Of a stretch of DNA of 64,000 nt, positions 9,834 to 44,191 are shown one piece after another (position 1 is the stretch's first letter; the number at the start of each line of letters is the position of its first letter). A program made the position numbers and the translations under genes. The DNA is taken from contig BPGK01000001.1 of assembly GCA_026002995.1 (NCBI GenBank), positions 868,001-932,000 on the forward strand. Direction: 5' to 3'. The notes below the pieces were generated by a model, which was given only the letters and a program-made list of their open reading frames with translations, did not search any database and was not told where the DNA came from. The stretch comes from Gaiellaceae bacterium. Its GTDB lineage: Bacteria > Actinomycetota > Thermoleophilia > Gaiellales > Gaiellaceae.

Positions 9834-12806
9834 GTGTTTGCCGCCGCCAAGCATTGGGCACCTGGGCTGCTCGCGCTCGCTGCACTCAGCGTCCTGGCGC
9901 TGTCGACCGCTGCGAGCGGTGCGCCGGTCGGTACCGAGCGATCGAAGCAGTCGACCAAGCGGGACCGAACCCCTCCGACCGCTCCGACGGACCTTCGTGT
10001 AACGGCAACGACACCCTCCTCTGTCGCACTTGCCTGGTCCGCGTCCAAGGACAACGTCGGGGTCGTCGGGTATCGCGTCTCCTACGCGGGAAGGTCTCGT
10101 AGCGTTACGACGACATCGTTCGTGGTCAAGGGCCTCACGTGTGGGCGAAGCGTGTTCGTGTCCATCGTCGGCTTCGATCGCGCAAGGAACGTCTCCGTGC
10201 CTACCGCGACCACCGCATCGACGTCCGCGTGCACCGACGTGACTCCGCCGACATCTCCTACCGGGTTCCGTCAGATCGACACTTTCCAGGACGCCGTCGT
10301 GCTGAGCTGGAGCCCGTCATCCGATGATGTCGGCGTCGTCGGCTACGGCGTCTATCGGAGCGGTGTACTCGTCGCCGAGTCGTCGAGCCCGATCGTCACG
10401 CTTGCGAGGCTCACATGTGACGCGACTTACCGGTACGACATCGATGCGGTCGACGCCGCGGGCAACCGCTCTCGTCCGACGCCCGTCTGGGTGCAGACGT
10501 CGGCGTGTGACGATTGGGGCGACGCTCCGTCCGCTCCGGAAGAGCTGCGGGTGATCGCCCAAGAGCCGAGCTCGGTGACGCTGGCGTGGTCGGCTCCATC
10601 CGACGGTGTCGGGGTTACCGGCTACACGGTCTACATCGACGGTGCGCCCGCGCTGAACTCGAGTCAGCTCTCGGCGATCGTTTCGGGGCTCTCCTGTGGG
10701 ACGACCTACGTGCTCGGTGTCGACGCGTTCGATGCCGCGGGTAGGCGCTCGCCGATCGTGACCGTGAGCTCGTCGACGAGCCCGTGTGTAGCAGACCCCT
10801 CGCCGATTCCTGGGTCTGCGCTCGACTCGTCGCCTCCTTCACCGCCGGGCGAGCTCGCGGTTACGGGTGCCACGGGCTCGACGATCTCGCTCTCCTGGGC
10901 CGCCTCATCGGACGATCGCGGTGTCGCCGGCTACGGGCTCTATGTCCATGGTCGGCGCGTCGCGAGCACCACGGCGCTCACGGCTACGATCTCGGCGCTC
11001 TCCTGCGGCACGTCGTACGTGCTCGGCGTCGATGCGGTCGATGGGGCAGGCAATCGCTCGACCGTGACTCAGCGCTCTGCGTCGACGGCGCGGTGCGAAG
11101 ACACCCAGCCGCCGACGTCTCCCACGAGTCTCGTCGCGACGTCACGAACCTCCGACAGCATTGCGCTCTCATGGTCAGCGTCCAGCGATGATGTCGGCGT
11201 CGTCGGCTACGGGCTCTATCGGAATGGTGTCCTCGTTGGGGCAACCTCCGGGACGAGCGGCATCTTCGTCGGCCTCGCATGCAATACGAGCTACACCTTG
11301 GGGGTCGACGCGTTCGATGCCGCAGGGAACCGCTCGCCACGCGCCGTCATGATGGTCTCGACGTCCAGCTGTCCCGACACATCGCCGCCAAGCGCTCCGA
11401 CGAACCTCGTCGTCGCCTCGATCGGCGAGACGAGTCTCACGCTGATGTGGGGGGCGTCGACGGACGACACCGGTGTGGTTGGCTACGACGTCTATCGTGG
11501 AGAGGCGAGAGTAGCCACCGTCACGACGACGTCGTACCGCCAGGGCGAGCTGTCCTGTGGGACGACGTATACGTTCGGGGTCACGGCCTTCGACGGGGCG
11601 GGCAACCGCTCTCCTCGCGCCCAGATCACGGTCTCGACTCCTACCTGTCCGCCTCCGCCAGTGCCCGCGTCCTCGGGCGCTGCGGTTGCCGTCGCCCCCT
11701 CCGGGAACGATTCGACCTGCGTCCGCGGCGATCTCGCGAAGCCGTGCGCCACCTTCCGCCGCGCGTACGAGATCGCTCACTGCGGAGATCTCGTCCACGT
11801 CGCTGACGGGTCGTACGCGCGCCAGGATCTCCAGGGCCCGGACAAGTCCTGCTCGGGTGGCTACGTCGTCTTCAAGGGGAGTCGCGCAGCGGTAGTGGAC
11901 GAGATCAAGACGGCCGAGTGCTGCGGTCGTGCTGTGAACGGCCCGGACTGGATCGAGCTCAACGGCTTCACGCTCCGCAACCGGCTGAACGGCTGGGGTC
12001 AAGCCGACAACTGGCGCGTCATTGGGATCGACGGGGGTTCCTTCGACATCAACGGTCCGGCCAACTGGCTGCTCTCGGGCAACGACTGGGGGCCATGCAG
12101 CTCGAACACGGCGCCGACCTGCAATGGGCAGAACTTCGCTGGTGGAGTATCCAACCTCGTCATCGACGGAGACACCTTCCACGACTTCACCATCACGCCG
12201 GGATCGGGGGCGCACTGGGAGTGCCTCTTCATCACCGGTGCACGCGGGGCGAACGTCATTCGCAACTCTCGCTTCTGGAACTGCGAGACGTACGGGATCT
12301 ACTTCTCGAGCTTCCACTCCGACCACCGCTACTCGACGGGCTCCTGGACGGTCGAGAACAACTGGTTCGGCCGCACCTGCTGCTTCGGCTCGTCACCCCG
12401 CTCATCTGCGATCAACCTCGGAGGCTCCTCCCCCGGCGAGCCGGTGCAGAACGTTCTCATCCGCTTCAACTCCTTCGCCCCGGGCCAGACGCTCGTGCGC
12501 GAGGGGGGTCCGACGGGCTCGAACCTCCGCGCAGTTGGGAACATCTTCGGAGCGAGCGGGTGTGTGGCGGACGTCTCATACTTCTATAACCTCTTCAGAG
12601 GCGGCACCTGCGGGCAGTCGGGTCTCACGATCTCGGAGATGCCCTATGTCAACGGGTCTGACGGCGCCGCGATGGACTACCACCTCCGCAGTGGCTCGCC
12701 AGCCGAGCGGTATGTGGCACCGACGAGCTCCGACTACGCGCTGGCCATCGACATCGATAGGCAGAGCCGAAGCTCTCCGAGGGACGCAGGCTCCGATCAG
12801 CGCTGA
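9834..12806 (+). CDS. Secreted protein with six FN3 repeats and a parallel beta-helix domain
   Basis: A 990-residue exported protein. A signal sequence (about residues 1-29, ending near TAASGA) precedes six fibronectin type III repeats of about 93 residues (about 46-606), each with DDVGVVGY-like and DAAGNRSP-like motifs. A right-handed beta-helix/pectate-lyase-like domain (about 612-990) follows. Every FN3 unit has one internal Cys (L-S/T-C-G) and ends in a Cys, implying one disulfide per unit. The start is a GTG at 9834. Beta-helix domains of this kind commonly bind or cleave polysaccharides; with its position in an exopolysaccharide locus, a matrix-binding or trimming role is plausible but not shown. 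Residues about 620-907 are encoded by DNA repeated in the next gene. Confidence 0.85.
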   Translation: MFAAAKHWAPGLLALAALSVLALSTAASGAPVGTERSKQSTKRDRTPPTAPTDLRVTATTPSSVALAWSASKDNVGVVGYRVSYAGRSRSVTTTSFVVKGLTCGRSVFVSIVGFDRARNVSVPTATTASTSACTDVTPPTSPTGFRQIDTFQDAVVLSWSPSSDDVGVVGYGVYRSGVLVAESSSPIVTLARLTCDATYRYDIDAVDAAGNRSRPTPVWVQTSACDDWGDAPSAPEELRVIAQEPSSVTLAWSAPSDGVGVTGYTVYIDGAPALNSSQLSAIVSGLSCGTTYVLGVDAFDAAGRRSPIVTVSSSTSPCVADPSPIPGSALDSSPPSPPGELAVTGATGSTISLSWAASSDDRGVAGYGLYVHGRRVASTTALTATISALSCGTSYVLGVDAVDGAGNRSTVTQRSASTARCEDTQPPTSPTSLVATSRTSDSIALSWSASSDDVGVVGYGLYRNGVLVGATSGTSGIFVGLACNTSYTLGVDAFDAAGNRSPRAVMMVSTSSCPDTSPPSAPTNLVVASIGETSLTLMWGASTDDTGVVGYDVYRGEARVATVTTTSYRQGELSCGTTYTFGVTAFDGAGNRSPRAQITVSTPTCPPPPVPASSGAAVAVAPSGNDSTCVRGDLAKPCATFRRAYEIAHCGDLVHVADGSYARQDLQGPDKSCSGGYVVFKGSRAAVVDEIKTAECCGRAVNGPDWIELNGFTLRNRLNGWGQADNWRVIGIDGGSFDINGPANWLLSGNDWGPCSSNTAPTCNGQNFAGGVSNLVIDGDTFHDFTITPGSGAHWECLFITGARGANVIRNSRFWNCETYGIYFSSFHSDHRYSTGSWTVENNWFGRTCCFGSSPRSSAINLGGSSPGEPVQNVLIRFNSFAPGQTLVREGGPTGSNLRAVGNIFGASGCVADVSYFYNLFRGGTCGQSGLTISEMPYVNGSDGAAMDYHLRSGSPAERYVAPTSSDYALAIDIDRQSRSSPRDAGSDQR
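11690..12556 (+). repeat. 867-bp direct repeat, copy 1 (beta-helix core)
   Basis: Coding repeat in the six-FN3 protein. As far as I can read, the sequence is identical base for base to 13063-13929, at an offset of 1,373 bp and in the same reading phase. The flanks diverge abruptly on both sides at the nucleotide level, although the protein just past the 3' boundary remains recognisably similar. Confidence 0.95.
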
Positions 12807-12925
12807 GCCGAGAGCTCAGCGCGTCCTGCTGGTAGGGTGACGTCTCCTGGCGCGGGCGTCTCGCACGGAGATGTCCGCAGGATTCGTGCTGGGAGTGGTG
12901 GCTCCGTGGCGTTTCGGGTTGGGGA

Positions 12926-14308
12926 GTGATCGAGGTCTCACTGTCGAAGCCGCGATCGAGAGCCCTGGTAGCGTTGCTCGTCTTGAGCGGAATCGTGCTC
13001 GGAGGCGAGCGGATCACCTCTCTTGCCGCCAGTGGACAAGCATCTGCGACACCACGAGTCCGCGTCGCCCCCTCCGGGAACGATTCGACCTGCGTCCGCG
13101 GCGATCTCGCGAAGCCGTGCGCCACCTTCCGCCGCGCGTACGAGATCGCTCACTGCGGAGATCTCGTCCACGTCGCTGACGGGTCGTACGCGCGCCAGGA
13201 TCTCCAGGGCCCGGACAAGTCCTGCTCGGGTGGCTACGTCGTCTTCAAGGGGAGTCGCGCAGCGGTAGTGGACGAGATCAAGACGGCCGAGTGCTGCGGT
13301 CGTGCTGTGAACGGCCCGGACTGGATCGAGCTCAACGGCTTCACGCTCCGCAACCGGCTGAACGGCTGGGGTCAAGCCGACAACTGGCGCGTCATTGGGA
13401 TCGACGGGGGTTCCTTCGACATCAACGGTCCGGCCAACTGGCTGCTCTCGGGCAACGACTGGGGGCCATGCAGCTCGAACACGGCGCCGACCTGCAATGG
13501 GCAGAACTTCGCTGGTGGAGTATCCAACCTCGTCATCGACGGAGACACCTTCCACGACTTCACCATCACGCCGGGATCGGGGGCGCACTGGGAGTGCCTC
13601 TTCATCACCGGTGCACGCGGGGCGAACGTCATTCGCAACTCTCGCTTCTGGAACTGCGAGACGTACGGGATCTACTTCTCGAGCTTCCACTCCGACCACC
13701 GCTACTCGACGGGCTCCTGGACGGTCGAGAACAACTGGTTCGGCCGCACCTGCTGCTTCGGCTCGTCACCCCGCTCATCTGCGATCAACCTCGGAGGCTC
13801 CTCCCCCGGCGAGCCGGTGCAGAACGTTCTCATCCGCTTCAACTCCTTCGCCCCGGGCCAGACGCTCGTGCGCGAGGGGGGTCCGACGGGCTCGAACCTC
13901 CGCGCAGTTGGGAACATCTTCGGAGCGAGGTCATGTACCACGGATGTGGCGTACTCCCGGAATCTGTATCCGGCGGGACGCTGTAGCTCCGAGGATCGAC
14001 TCGGCCCGCCATACGGCTACCGGCTCGTCGACGATCGGCTCGTCTTCGACGGTCGGCGCGCACAGGCCGTGAGGCGAGCCTTCCACCTCGCCGCGTTGCA
14101 TCGGGAACCACCGTTCGCTGTCGCTCGGGCTCTCCGGAGAGCCCGCCTTCCTCGTCCGCCGGGGGGATGGACGGCCGCCGGAGTCTCCGTCTTGCTCGGG
14201 AATCGAGACTACCTCGGGCGATCAATCGGACGGCAGGCCGCTCACCCGCCGCTCGTGTCGAGGCGCGAGTTCAATCGCGCTCAGCGGAGCCTGCGCTCAG
14301 CGCGATGA
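12926..14308 (+). CDS. Secreted beta-helix protein with a C-terminal serine-recombinase-like domain
   Basis: A 460-residue protein starting at a GTG (MIEVSLSKPRSR), with a signal sequence or anchor at about residues 12-35. Residues about 47-334 are the same beta-helix core as in the preceding protein, encoded by apparently identical DNA. After a short diverged tail (SCTTDVAYSRNLYPAGRC, the counterpart of CVADVSYFYNLFRGGTC upstream), the last 100 residues match the 'Recombinase' domain of large serine integrases: PPYGYRLVDDRLVFD, an AVRRAFHLAA helix, RLPRPPGGWTAAGVSVLLGN, DYLGR, then HPPLVSRREFNRAQ. There is no serine-recombinase catalytic domain. A DNA-binding-type domain on an exported protein is odd; it may be a chance fusion, a repurposed fold or a gene relic. 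Confidence 0.75.
   Translation: MIEVSLSKPRSRALVALLVLSGIVLGGERITSLAASGQASATPRVRVAPSGNDSTCVRGDLAKPCATFRRAYEIAHCGDLVHVADGSYARQDLQGPDKSCSGGYVVFKGSRAAVVDEIKTAECCGRAVNGPDWIELNGFTLRNRLNGWGQADNWRVIGIDGGSFDINGPANWLLSGNDWGPCSSNTAPTCNGQNFAGGVSNLVIDGDTFHDFTITPGSGAHWECLFITGARGANVIRNSRFWNCETYGIYFSSFHSDHRYSTGSWTVENNWFGRTCCFGSSPRSSAINLGGSSPGEPVQNVLIRFNSFAPGQTLVREGGPTGSNLRAVGNIFGARSCTTDVAYSRNLYPAGRCSSEDRLGPPYGYRLVDDRLVFDGRRAQAVRRAFHLAALHREPPFAVARALRRARLPRPPGGWTAAGVSVLLGNRDYLGRSIGRQAAHPPLVSRREFNRAQRSLRSAR
13063..13929 (+). repeat. 867-bp direct repeat, copy 2 (beta-helix core)
   Basis: Second copy of the 11690-12556 segment, in frame in the following gene. The match breaks at the codon after the shared GAGCGAG end, where the two genes continue with related but diverged tails. 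Confidence 0.95.
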
Positions 14309-15079
14309 GGGCTCCTGGAACCACTCGAAGCGTCGGTTCATCGGGCGCACGAGGGGGATCCGCAGTAAGAGCCGCTTGAGAGCCATCTTCTGCTTTTGAC
14401 GACGTTCGTAGCGTCGCCAGAACTCTCGTTTCTCTGGAGGCTCGGGACCGCTTGGGCTCTGATGGAGCACGTGGAGGTCGGCCAGGACTGCGCTCTCGAG
14501 TCCGATCCGCTCGAGAGCCCTGATGTACTCCCACTCCTCCTGCCAGAAGACGCGCCCCGGACGCTCCGGGAAGCCGCCCACACGGTCAGCGACGTCTCTC
14601 GAGGTCATCGCGCACCCTCCGCCCGCGGGTCCCGAGAGGAGGCGGATGCCGTTGATCTCGTAGGGGTGGTACTCGTGTGGGCGCACCTCGTGGCGCACGC
14701 GTGACGCTTGGTCGTGGGGATTGGGGGCGAGATCGGCCGCGAGGAAACCCACTTCCGGGAGCTTTCGGTATGCCTCGTAGAGGACTCTGTCCCAGTGCCA
14801 GGGTGCCGCAACGACGTCATCATCGAGCTCGATCATGTACGGGGCCTTCGTTTGGCGAAAGGCTCGCGCGTACCCGTTCATGCCGACGTTCGTCGAGGAG
14901 CGGATGCAGCGGAAACGAGGATCGGGCAGGCTCTCCACATACGCGGCTGTTCCGTCTCGGGAGCCGTTGTCCCAGATCACGATCTCGGTCGTGAGGTTCG
15001 ACGTTCGCAGGAGGACATCCTCCACGCACCTGCGGAGCGTTGGGAGTCGGTTATGAGTGATGACGACGATCGCGATCAC
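14297..15079 (-). CDS. Glycosyltransferase family 2
   Basis: A 260-residue GT-A glycosyltransferase. It starts MIAIVVITHNRLPTL and shows EIVIWDNGSRDGT and the metal-binding LDDDVV (about residues 85-90), then GGCAMTSRDVADRVGG, the usual acceptor-loop region. It is last in a four-gene minus-strand operon (17431 to 14297), overlapping the upstream GT2 gene by 4 bp, and is convergent with the beta-helix/recombinase gene (12-bp overlap). It probably adds one sugar of the repeat unit. The basic C-terminal tail may associate with the membrane. Confidence 0.85.
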   Translation of the reverse strand: MIAIVVITHNRLPTLRRCVEDVLLRTSNLTTEIVIWDNGSRDGTAAYVESLPDPRFRCIRSSTNVGMNGYARAFRQTKAPYMIELDDDVVAAPWHWDRVLYEAYRKLPEVGFLAADLAPNPHDQASRVRHEVRPHEYHPYEINGIRLLSGPAGGGCAMTSRDVADRVGGFPERPGRVFWQEEWEYIRALERIGLESAVLADLHVLHQSPSGPEPPEKREFWRRYERRQKQKMALKRLLLRIPLVRPMNRRFEWFQEPSSR

Positions 15080-16068
15080 GAGCCGTACCTTCCTCGGGGC
15101 CGGCCGTTGCTCCTTCGTCGCCGACCGTCCATTGCTCCACGCGCTTGGGCGAGCGCTCGCGTGTAGGGAAGGAGGACGTAGATGATCGGGAGCGTCTTGA
15201 GCTTTTGCATCGAACTCAGTCGGACGCCGTTCTCAGCGAGCCAGGTCGCGTCGGGACCCGTTAGGGAGACCCCGAACCGTCGCCGCGACCTCATGACAGG
15301 GAGGATCGGCATCCAGTTCCGCAGCTTCAGACCATCCGGCTTCTCGCCACGGCTCACGGCTCGAGCGGCGTAGCCTCGGCTGTAGATCCAGTGCGCCCGC
15401 AGGACGCTTCGCGCCCTGTCTCGGGTCGGGTGCCACACGACCGCCTCCGGGCTGTACGAGAGACGGTAACCGGCAGCGACCGCGCGCTCGACGAAGTCGA
15501 AGTCGCCGTGTTCGTCGATGGAGTCGTCGAATCCGTCGAGGGCCTCGAAGACGTCTCTGCGCACGAACAGGTTCGCGGTCTCTGCCGTGCCGAGCCTGGT
15601 CAGGAGGCGGTGGTTCTTCGACGTCTCCATGTCGACGTACGTCCACGAGGTCGCCCGTCTCGGCAGCTTGAAGCGTATCCTGCCGGCAACGAGGTCAGCG
15701 TCCGCGAGCGCCGCGAGGCCTCGCTCGAGCCAGGACGGCTCCGGCTCGCAGTCCGCATCGCAGAAGGCGAGGATCGATGCGGTAGCTGCGCGCGAAGCTC
15801 GGTTGCGTGCGGCGTACGAGTTCAGCGCTGGGCCGGTGAGGACGCGTACCCAGCTGTCTCTGGTCGCAAGTTGTCCTGGATCGTCGTGCGAGCCGTCGTC
15901 TCCGATGAGCACCTCGAAGCGCTTCCGCGGGAGTGTTTGTCTCTCCAGCGCACGGATGAGGTTGGGTAACCAGCGCATACCGTTCCTGACCGGCACGATC
16001 ACGCTGACGCGATCCGCGCGGCTCTCGGCGCGTCGAATGCCTGTTTCAGCGCGTCGACTGACAGACAT
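15076..16068 (-). CDS. Glycosyltransferase family 2
   Basis: A 330-residue GT-A enzyme. The ATG at 16068 (MSVSRRAETG) is chosen because the frame further upstream is low-complexity and overlaps the preceding gene. Motifs: RVSVIVPVRNGMRWL, IGDDGSHDD, FCDADCEP (the DXD region, about residues 120-127) and FDDSIDEHGDFDFVERA. A C-terminal hydrophobic/basic stretch (KLKTLPIIYVLLPYTRAL) may be a membrane-associated helix. It overlaps the Alg13-like gene upstream by 23 bp and the next GT2 by 4 bp, so the operon is translationally coupled. Confidence 0.85.
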   Translation of the reverse strand: MSVSRRAETGIRRAESRADRVSVIVPVRNGMRWLPNLIRALERQTLPRKRFEVLIGDDGSHDDPGQLATRDSWVRVLTGPALNSYAARNRASRAATASILAFCDADCEPEPSWLERGLAALADADLVAGRIRFKLPRRATSWTYVDMETSKNHRLLTRLGTAETANLFVRRDVFEALDGFDDSIDEHGDFDFVERAVAAGYRLSYSPEAVVWHPTRDRARSVLRAHWIYSRGYAARAVSRGEKPDGLKLRNWMPILPVMRSRRRFGVSLTGPDATWLAENGVRLSSMQKLKTLPIIYVLLPYTRALAQARGAMDGRRRRSNGRPRGRYGS

Positions 16069-16543
16069 GGTCAGCCCCGAGAAGCGCGCTCTGCGTGATC
16101 TCCGCGACCGCTCGCGACAAGGATGTGTCCGCTGCGAGCGTGAACGCCGTGGTGTCGGAGTGACGGACGCTCTCGGCGAGCTCGTCGAGACTCCGGACAT
16201 GAGTGACGGAGCCTAGCTCGTGGAGCGCGTCCGCCAGCTCGAGCTGGTGGTCGTCGACGGCCTCGCCGAGCCGGGCACGGCGTGCGACGACGAGCGGTCG
16301 TTTCCCAGCGAGGGTCGCGGTGAGAATCGACCCGACCCCAGCGTGACTTACGACGATCCGTGCGCGCTCCATGTGAGCTGCGACTTCGCCGTAGTCCATG
16401 AGCTCGACACACGTGGCATTCCGCGGGCGGACAGTCGAGCTCCCGCATTGCGCGACGATCTCCTCGTCGGTGTCGAGTTCCTCGACAGCCTTGAGCAGCC
16501 GGTCGAAAGCGAAGTGGGTTGTCCCGACAGTGACGAAGATCAC
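16046..16543 (-). CDS. Alg13/PssE/EpsF-like glycosyltransferase subunit
   Basis: A 165-residue protein corresponding to the C-terminal, nucleotide-sugar-binding half of a GT28 enzyme. It starts MIFVTVGTTHFAFDRLL, the canonical Alg13/PssE beginning, and has the UDP-sugar loop VVSHAGVGSILTATLAGKRPLVV (about residues 64-86, HAG-x-GS). Enzymes of this type work only with a membrane-bound Alg14/PssD partner. The likely partner is encoded about 1 kb away on the opposite strand (17530-18030). It lies 6 bp after the GT2 gene at 16550-17431 and overlaps the next gene by 23 bp. Confidence 0.85.
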   Translation of the reverse strand: MIFVTVGTTHFAFDRLLKAVEELDTDEEIVAQCGSSTVRPRNATCVELMDYGEVAAHMERARIVVSHAGVGSILTATLAGKRPLVVARRARLGEAVDDHQLELADALHELGSVTHVRSLDELAESVRHSDTTAFTLAADTSLSRAVAEITQSALLGADHVCQSTR

Positions 16544-23146: not shown

Positions 23147-24190
23147 GTGAGGATCCTCGTCACCGGCCATCACGGCTACATCGGGTCTGTCCTCGCACCC
23201 ACGCTTCGCGAAGCCGGTCACGACGTCGTAGGCGTCGATACGTTCTTCTACCGAGGTTGCGACTTCGGCACCGCGCCGGACATCCCCTCGCTCGAGGCTG
23301 ACGTCCGTGACCTCGGCCCGCGCGATCTCGAGGGGTTCGATGCGGTGGTGCATCTCGCCGCGCTCTCGAACGACCCGGTCGGCGATCTCGATCCCGAGTT
23401 GACGTACGAGATCAATCTCCGCGGATCAGTCTCGCTGGCGCGGGCGGCGAAGGCCGCAGGCGTCCGTCGCTTCGTCTTCGCCTCCTCCTGCTCGATGTAT
23501 GGGGCGAGCGGCAGCGACGCGCTGCTCGACGAGAGCGCACCTCTCCGTCCGCTGACCCCTTACGCCGAGTCGAAGGTGCGTGCAGAGAAGGAGGTAGTCG
23601 CACTAGCTGGCGAGGGGTTCGCGCCCGTATTCATGCGAAACGCCACGGTCTACGGCGTCTCACCGCGACTTCGCCTCGACGTCGTGTTGAACAACCTCGT
23701 CGCCTGGGCGCATACCACCGGGGCGATTCGGCTTCAGAGCGACGGCTCCGCATGGCGACCGCTCGTCCACGTCCGCGACCTTTCCCGGGCAACCCTCGTG
23801 CTGCTCGACGCGCCGCTCGAGCTCGTTACTGGCCAAGCGTTCAACATCGGCTCTCCCGAGCAGAACTACCGTATCCGCGAGCTCGCAGAGATCGTCCACG
23901 ACTGTCTCCCCGAGTGCGAGGTCACCTTCGCGGGCGGAGTCTCGCCCGACCCGCGCAGCTACCGGGTGCGCTTCTCGAAGTTCGCCGAGACATTCCCGGA
24001 GTTTCGCTTCGAATGGACAGCCGAGCGCGGGGTGAAGGAGCTCGCACGCGCCTACGAGGAGCTCGGTCTCACGCTCGAGGAGTTCGACGTGACTGGTCGG
24101 TTCACGCGCCTTGCCCAGCTAAGGAGATTGCTCGACACGGGTGCGCTGGATCGTGACCTGCGTTGGCGTTCTCGCTCGGACGGTTCCTAG
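23147..24190 (+). CDS. NAD-dependent epimerase/dehydratase (extended SDR)
   Basis: A 347-residue extended short-chain dehydrogenase for a nucleotide sugar. The GTG at 23147 gives VRILVTGHHGYIG (G-x2-G-x2-G), preferred over an earlier in-frame start inside the previous gene. The catalytic triad appears as SSCSMYG, then YAESK (Y-x3-K); FMRNATVYG and a late RPLVHVRDLSRA follow the UDP-hexose-4-epimerase pattern. It is the only SDR in the module, so it could supply the 4,6-dehydratase or 4-reductase step on CDP-glucose. It overlaps convergent ybaB by 4 bp. Confidence 0.87.
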   Translation: MRILVTGHHGYIGSVLAPTLREAGHDVVGVDTFFYRGCDFGTAPDIPSLEADVRDLGPRDLEGFDAVVHLAALSNDPVGDLDPELTYEINLRGSVSLARAAKAAGVRRFVFASSCSMYGASGSDALLDESAPLRPLTPYAESKVRAEKEVVALAGEGFAPVFMRNATVYGVSPRLRLDVVLNNLVAWAHTTGAIRLQSDGSAWRPLVHVRDLSRATLVLLDAPLELVTGQAFNIGSPEQNYRIRELAEIVHDCLPECEVTFAGGVSPDPRSYRVRFSKFAETFPEFRFEWTAERGVKELARAYEELGLTLEEFDVTGRFTRLAQLRRLLDTGALDRDLRWRSRSDGS

Positions 24191-28344: not shown

Positions 28345-28779
28345 TTGGTCGAGCGCGGGATCCGGATCGCCATCGACGACTTCGGTGTCTGCTGCTCGTC
28401 GCTCGGCGAGCTCGAGGGCCTGCCCGTCCGCGTTCTCAAGATCGATCGCTCGTTCGTGGGCGCCATGGAGCGCGATCCGCGCGACGTCGCGATCGTCCGC
28501 TCGACTGTCGAGCTCGCGCACCGACTCGGCCTCGAGATTGTCGCCGAGGGCGTCGAGAGTCGCGAGCACATCGCCCGACTCGAGGGGATCGGGTGCGACA
28601 TCGGGCAGGGTTTCGCGCTCGGTCGCCCCGTTCCGGCCCGGGACTTCCCGTACGCGGGTCGGTCGATGCGGGACGCGCTCAGCGAGCCGATCGACGCCGT
28701 TATCCCGCTCCGGCGCGCCGCGCTCGGACGCTCGGTCGAGCGTCCCTCGTGGGCGGCGAGCGGAGGGGGAGGGATTTGA
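28345..28779 (+). pseudogene. Truncated EAL-domain (c-di-GMP phosphodiesterase) remnant
   Basis: The frame encodes the C-terminal half of an EAL domain: LVERGIRIAIDDFG, LKIDRSFVGAM, then LEIVAEGVESREH and GCDIGQGFALGRP. The first half, including the EAL signature itself and its catalytic Glu, is missing; an in-frame ATG at 28120 only adds Gly/Pro-rich sequence unlike the family. DDFG is followed by VCCSS in place of the usual TGYSS. An active cyclic-di-GMP phosphodiesterase is therefore unlikely. The 3' end overlaps tRNA-Ser(CGA) on the opposite strand, another sign of decay. Confidence 0.7.
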
Positions 28780-28847
28780 ACCCTCGAGGCGCTTGCACGC
28801 CTAACGGTTTTCGAGACCGCCCCGTTCGACCGCTCCGGCACCCCTCC
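28761..28847 (-). tRNA. tRNA-Ser (CGA)
   Basis: Minus-strand class II tRNA: acceptor GGAGGGG/CCCCTCC, anticodon stem GCGGT/ACCGT with loop CTCGAAA (anticodon CGA), long variable arm, T arm GAGGG-TTCAAAT-CCCTC and discriminator G. Confidence 0.94.
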
Positions 28848-28971
28848 GAAGACGCCATTGTGCTCGAAGGGGGAGTCTCGCGGGGTCGCAACGGTTCGCT
28901 CGCGCACACTTCGAGCTCTCTCCCTCGCCATCCGAGGGCGCGCGGAGGCGTCCGATATCCTGAGCGCGCCC

Positions 28972-43876: not shown

Positions 43877-44063
43877 GACCCGGAACGAGGCGGAGATCCG
43901 CGCCGAGCTCACCGCCGAGCGCGAGCAGCTCGTCGGGGCGCTCGCCGACCTCCGGGCAAGCGTGGCAGCGAAGCGCCAGCCGGCGGCAGTCGTCGGTGGA
44001 GTCGCCGCCGCCGCAACCGCGCTCGTCGTCCTACGCGGCATCGCCCGCCGCCTGCGCGGGTAG
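43866..44063 (+). CDS. DUF3618-like small protein
   Basis: A 65-residue protein starting at a GTG inside the end of the holin-X gene. A charged helix ([21 protein letters not shown]) precedes a short hydrophobic stretch ([17 protein letters not shown]) and a basic end, as in DUF3618 proteins. Family function is unknown; it probably associates with the membrane alongside the upstream product. It ends right before tRNA-Ser(TGA) on the other strand. Confidence 0.7.
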
Positions 44064-44150
44064 CGGCGGGGGTGGGATTCGAACCCACGGGGCGCTTGCG
44101 CGCCCAACGGTTTTCAAGACCGCCCCGTTCGACCGCTCCGGCACCCCGCC
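44064..44150 (-). tRNA. tRNA-Ser (TGA)
   Basis: Minus-strand class II tRNA: acceptor GGCGGGG/CCCCGCC, anticodon stem GCGGT/ACCGT with loop CTTGAAA (anticodon TGA), long variable arm, T arm GTGGG-TTCGAAT-CCCAC and discriminator G. It lies 41 bp downstream of serS on the same strand and may be cotranscribed with it. Confidence 0.95.
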
Positions 44151-44191
44151 GACCCGCATTGTGAAGGGCGAGGGCGAGGCAGGCCTCGCGC

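Follow-up and report, generated by a model that had tools for sequence, protein, structure and literature searches.

An identical 867-bp core in two adjacent mosaic genes of a Gaiellaceae polysaccharide cluster, one of which ends in a serine-integrase recombinase domain

Two neighbouring genes and the core they share

The locus described here lies in a 64,000-nucleotide stretch of a Gaiellaceae genome, referred to below as the window, and consists of two neighbouring forward-strand genes built around the same central region, the core. Gene A (9834-12806; 990 aa) begins with a hydrophobic, leader-like N-terminus, followed by an FN3 array, the core (11690-12556) and an ordinary tail (12557-12806) that ends in DAGSDQR; six PF00041 (FN3) stretches were recognised with 161.2 bits (E 6.9e-48) against a cut-off of 25. 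Gene B (12926-14308; 460 aa) also opens with a hydrophobic, leader-like N-terminus, followed by the core (13063-13929), a short stretch that is homologous to A yet diverged (13930-13990), and a recombinase domain (RD, PF07508; 14009-14305) without the catalytic or zinc-ribbon domain. The two genes therefore differ at both ends, with an FN3 array against a short leader at the N-terminus and an ordinary tail against an RD at the C-terminus. Judged from sequence, both products are probably secreted proteins. The core resembles right-handed beta-helix proteins, although scores against PF13229 (Beta_helix) of 16.9 bits for A and 18.7 bits for B stay below the 25.9 cut-off and Pfam membership is not reached. 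The full-length AlphaFold model of B (pLDDT 35.2) is of too low confidence for the core fold to be read from it, NCBIfam offered no name for anything in B, and a search for promoter- or terminator-like sites found none.

The neighbourhood is a polysaccharide cluster with glycosyltransferases, Polysacc_synt, Wzy_C, asparagine synthase and a bacterial sugar transferase, and two family-2 glycosyltransferase genes (PF00535) lie downstream of B on the reverse strand (14297-16200). GC content rises from about 0.66 in the cluster to 0.70 or more near window position 24000. The 3' ends of A and B carry an imperfect inverted repeat of 19 nt (12785-12803 and 14277-14295), which was considered as the ends of a mobile unit and dropped as compatible with chance, the inverted-repeat count being 1.5 against a mean of 0.43 and a maximum of 2.5 in 20 shuffles.

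By direct comparison the two cores are equal at 867 of 867 bases, in the same reading phase within their own ORFs and with zero extension on either side; the original prediction of an identical, in-frame and sharply ending repeat was thus borne out. Identity over this length is no chance match. A search of the whole genome, which is a single contig of 2,622,036 bases (2.62 Mb; 97.28% complete), recovered both places at full length and 100% identity and found no third copy elsewhere in it. The absence of any difference places a 95% upper bound on divergence of 0.34% over all sites and of 1.0% over the 289 third positions. Among the direct repeats of at least 60 bases listed for the window, the only others were FN3 units and one 105-nt pair of 87% identity (28745-28849 and 44048-44152).

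Both edges of the block are abrupt. Ungapped DNA identity drops at once to 9/20 bases past the 3' edge and is 7/20 bases just before the 5' edge. In an alignment of the core family, the block runs from the conserved residues at its beginning to near the last motif. Beyond the 3' edge, where the peptides had been quoted correctly in the earlier reading, the first 20 residues of A and B give a BLOSUM62 score of 48 that none of 200,000 shuffles reached. This upholds in part the description of two otherwise diverged beta-helix genes, as homology does continue past the block; it extends for only about 20 residues, after which the tails are different domains, and on the 5' side only the 7/20 bases agree. 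That description had also overlooked that gene B ends in a recombinase domain.

The C-terminal tail of gene B

The tail of B is the DNA-binding RD type of large serine recombinases, without the rest of the enzyme. PF07508 was matched with 24.3 bits by the whole protein and 28.3 bits by the tail alone, in both cases over the cut-off of 21.1, and in PHROGs the tail fell into an integrase family (E 3.1e-12). Searches of B for the PF00239 resolvase catalytic domain, with E up to 1, and for the PF13408 zinc ribbon gave no match, and the protein ends directly after the RD. A tail model built from ten sequences has a pLDDT of 78, and from residue 31 onwards nine of its ten ten-residue blocks have values of 85-96 and the remaining one has 72; eight rows of the underlying alignment are recombinase pieces from viral contigs, on which the fold result leans. 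With this model Foldseek placed serine integrases at the top (4kis_A, E 5.6e-4, then Bxb1 and YokA), while VIA-align against 9y66_C gave Z 13.1 over 109 residues. A profile made from the tail of B and that of its relative in genome G035, discussed below, matched YokA among PDB sequences (E 0.0094).

B thus shares family, fold and RD consensus residues with the large serine recombinases (4kis, Bxb1 9iu9, YokA 9dxh/9y66, PhiC31 4bqq), from which it differs in lacking the catalytic domain and zinc ribbon, in carrying the RD behind a probably secreted core and in being far more basic. At +15 in B and +12 in the G035 relative, the RD carries a higher net charge than any of the 30 other RDs kept by the E-value and coverage filter of this comparison, which range from -2 to +9. 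Excerpts from a study of an A118-family integrase describe an RD with a 13-bp contact area, of which 3 bp are contacted directly in the major groove (PMC3783163). We also considered whether B might be a piece of an ordinary integrase gene and rejected this, given the missing catalytic domain and the fact that B is the sole PF07508 match over the cut-off in its own genome.

Relatives and distribution of the two architectures

When 151 genomes, our own included, were searched with B, 14 gave a match, in most cases restricted to the core or to the RD. For neither core did the searches yield a close ortholog, the best match outside the genome itself being 33% identical. One genome, G035, from the same family and another genus, carries a core-RD fusion as in B (28% identity over the aligned length, E 9e-26), with an RD above the Pfam cut-off and a tail 39% identical to that of B; the contig, L070 (JACDAN010000007.1), belongs to an Actinomycetota MAG. 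The order leader-core-RD is common to the two genera, and both ORFs end where the RD ends. Upstream of the L070 fusion (also listed as L006) a signal-peptide-like stretch lies in a different frame from the core, either through a sequencing error or a frameshift. At the end of the same contig, 2.8 kb from the fusion, is the 3' part of an A-type gene. Over 128 aligned positions, covering the last part of the core and the tail, this fragment and gene A are 41% identical; in its core part the fragment shares only 27% identity with its own B-type neighbour. A complete A-type gene, FN3-core-plain tail, is present in G003 of the same genus as our genome, with 36% identity to A over 918 aligned positions.

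The fusion is rare. It was seen in 2/103 family, 2/129 order, 2/399 class and 1/396 phylum genomes; these samples overlap, and the genomes concerned are always our own (G000) and, where included, G035, so that only two cases were found in this analysis. At the thresholds used, the RD tail was seen in none of the ten other genomes of the genus, several of them incomplete. A profile search of genome contigs with the alignment A1 matched only L070 (the contig of G035:C48), a scan of genome contigs with B alone gave no match, and neither did plasmids with the whole of B or phages with its tail. All 25 other places from a class-wide search with the tail were inspected, and none carries the core; they are serine-recombinase ORFs by motif or Pfam, as is L098 from the order search. 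In one of the 25, L062 (G244:C17), a 470-aa frame holds the RD and zinc ribbon, and the catalytic domain is not in frame.

A follows the usual order of secreted FN3/right-handed beta-helix proteins from actinobacterial polysaccharide clusters, with FN3, core and DAGADE-like tail, as in G003, G042 and G012. B stands apart in carrying the RD in place of the ordinary tail and in having a core identical to that of its neighbour.

A core tree of 19 rows paired the A-type core of G003 with the B-type core of G035 (support 96/85), which indicates that core type and tail type are not coupled. The tree left out the core of A, being the same as that of B, and the short A-type fragment of G035; G292, without the start motif, had been lost earlier. 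The core of our own genome (G000) sits by itself on a long branch with unsure placement, and the donor therefore cannot be read from the phylogeny. Codon usage of the block was nearer to the flanks of A than to those of B in 500/500 size-matched samples, and synonymous third-position GC is 0.857 in the block, 0.778 in the A flanks and 0.692 in the B flanks, although the block differs from the A flanks too (p 0.006). Together these point weakly to A as the donor.

Origin of the identity and possible role of the fused tail

The presence in G035 of a core-RD fusion and an A-type tail with differing cores makes both architectures look older than the identity. As both also exist outside our genome, recent one-way copying of the core is the best reading. 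We would give about an even chance to a scenario in which A and B are older mosaic paralogs of an exopolysaccharide cluster, encoding probably secreted proteins with different N- and C-termini; the core DNA would have been copied recently and in one direction, most likely from A to B, by gene conversion in a broad sense, leaving identical cores between flanks that keep their original age. B would be exported, and its very basic RD, freed of the catalytic parts of a recombinase, would act as a tip that grips DNA or another polyanion and anchors the core in the matrix.

The original prediction had likewise preferred recent gene conversion to a simple new duplication, which we find plausible and supported in part. 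The homology after the block and the separate existence of the architectures in G003 and G035 speak for it, while the edges are too abrupt. As in known conversion between neighbouring paralogs, A and B are adjacent and the identical block sits inside a longer homology; it is, however, confined to one domain, and the flanks are mostly unrelated. RecA-type conversion between strongly diverged genes does not typically leave abrupt edges, and in families this diverged the edges are hard to square with ordinary conversion. The former core of B may have been closer to that of A, or the event may have been illegitimate or Rhs-like.

An illegitimate event could have taken the form of a domain-level duplication, with a copy of the A core inserted or fused between a leader and an RD tail and no existing core converted. 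The abrupt edges on both sides and the extent of the block, from the conserved first residues of the core family to near its last motif, are what such an event would leave, but the roughly 20 residues of older homology beyond the 3' edge and a leader-core-RD unit already present in another genus argue otherwise, and we regard it as rather unlikely. Alternatively, a core with another tail might have entered through a single crossover inside the core, giving a direct core repeat with two tails. Excerpts from work on rhs loci describe such an arrangement, in which the cores within one locus are identical and the tips differ (PMC2935791), and A and B similarly place identical cores with different tails side by side; the unlinked core and tail types in the tree would also fit. 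Unlike a startless core plus displaced tip, though, B forms a complete ORF that has a start of its own and a leader-like N-terminus, the G035 pair has differing cores, and the FN3-core-plain tail order of G003 means that the tail of A need not be new. Such a tip exchange seems improbable here. It also should be considered that zero differences in 867 bases, in an assembly judged without reads, might reflect a false second copy or similar copies made identical by polishing. This we consider very improbable: the genome is a single contig, both copies are in frame, the differing flanks each have a counterpart in other genomes, and polishing, though it might remove a handful of differences, would not erase a divergence as strong as that observed within the family.

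A separate question is whether the RD tail of B has a function at all, or is what is left of an accidentally fused integrase gene, now decaying. Rarity of the fusion, in 2/103 family and 2/399 class genomes, and the frame of the leader-like stretch in the G035 relative would be in keeping with a remnant; the same order in two genera, ORFs that both finish at the domain end, retained RD consensus residues and two strongly basic tails are harder to reconcile with decay, and we think a remnant unlikely. Under our preferred reading the RD would have been exapted so that a secreted protein of the exopolysaccharide cluster could bind DNA or another polyanion with its tip. More broadly, and doubtfully, A and B might belong to a family of secreted matrix proteins whose C-terminal tips can be exchanged; core-templated recombination would then shift a given core between an ordinary tail and an integrase RD that has been domesticated and that, outside the cell, would bind extracellular DNA or an acidic polysaccharide. 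A 1373-bp deletion between the two cores is also conceivable and is predicted to yield FN3-core-RD.

The fusion of a probably secreted core to an integrase RD is a more interesting feature than the identity of the cores. Were B exported, a DNA-binding domain from an integrase would be working outside the cell, and in the titles and abstract openings of the literature searched we found no extracellular use of such a domain. If it is not, the locus would represent a well-documented yet ordinary recombination event. The pair also provides a clean example of mosaic surface-protein genes whose cores look to have been homogenised very recently. On contig G042:C3 (L004, L018), two opposite-strand genes about 11 kb apart have cores that are 74% identical, with DNA identity peaking in mid-core and with differing N-termini and C-terminal extensions, and are perhaps an older case of the core sharing seen in A and B.
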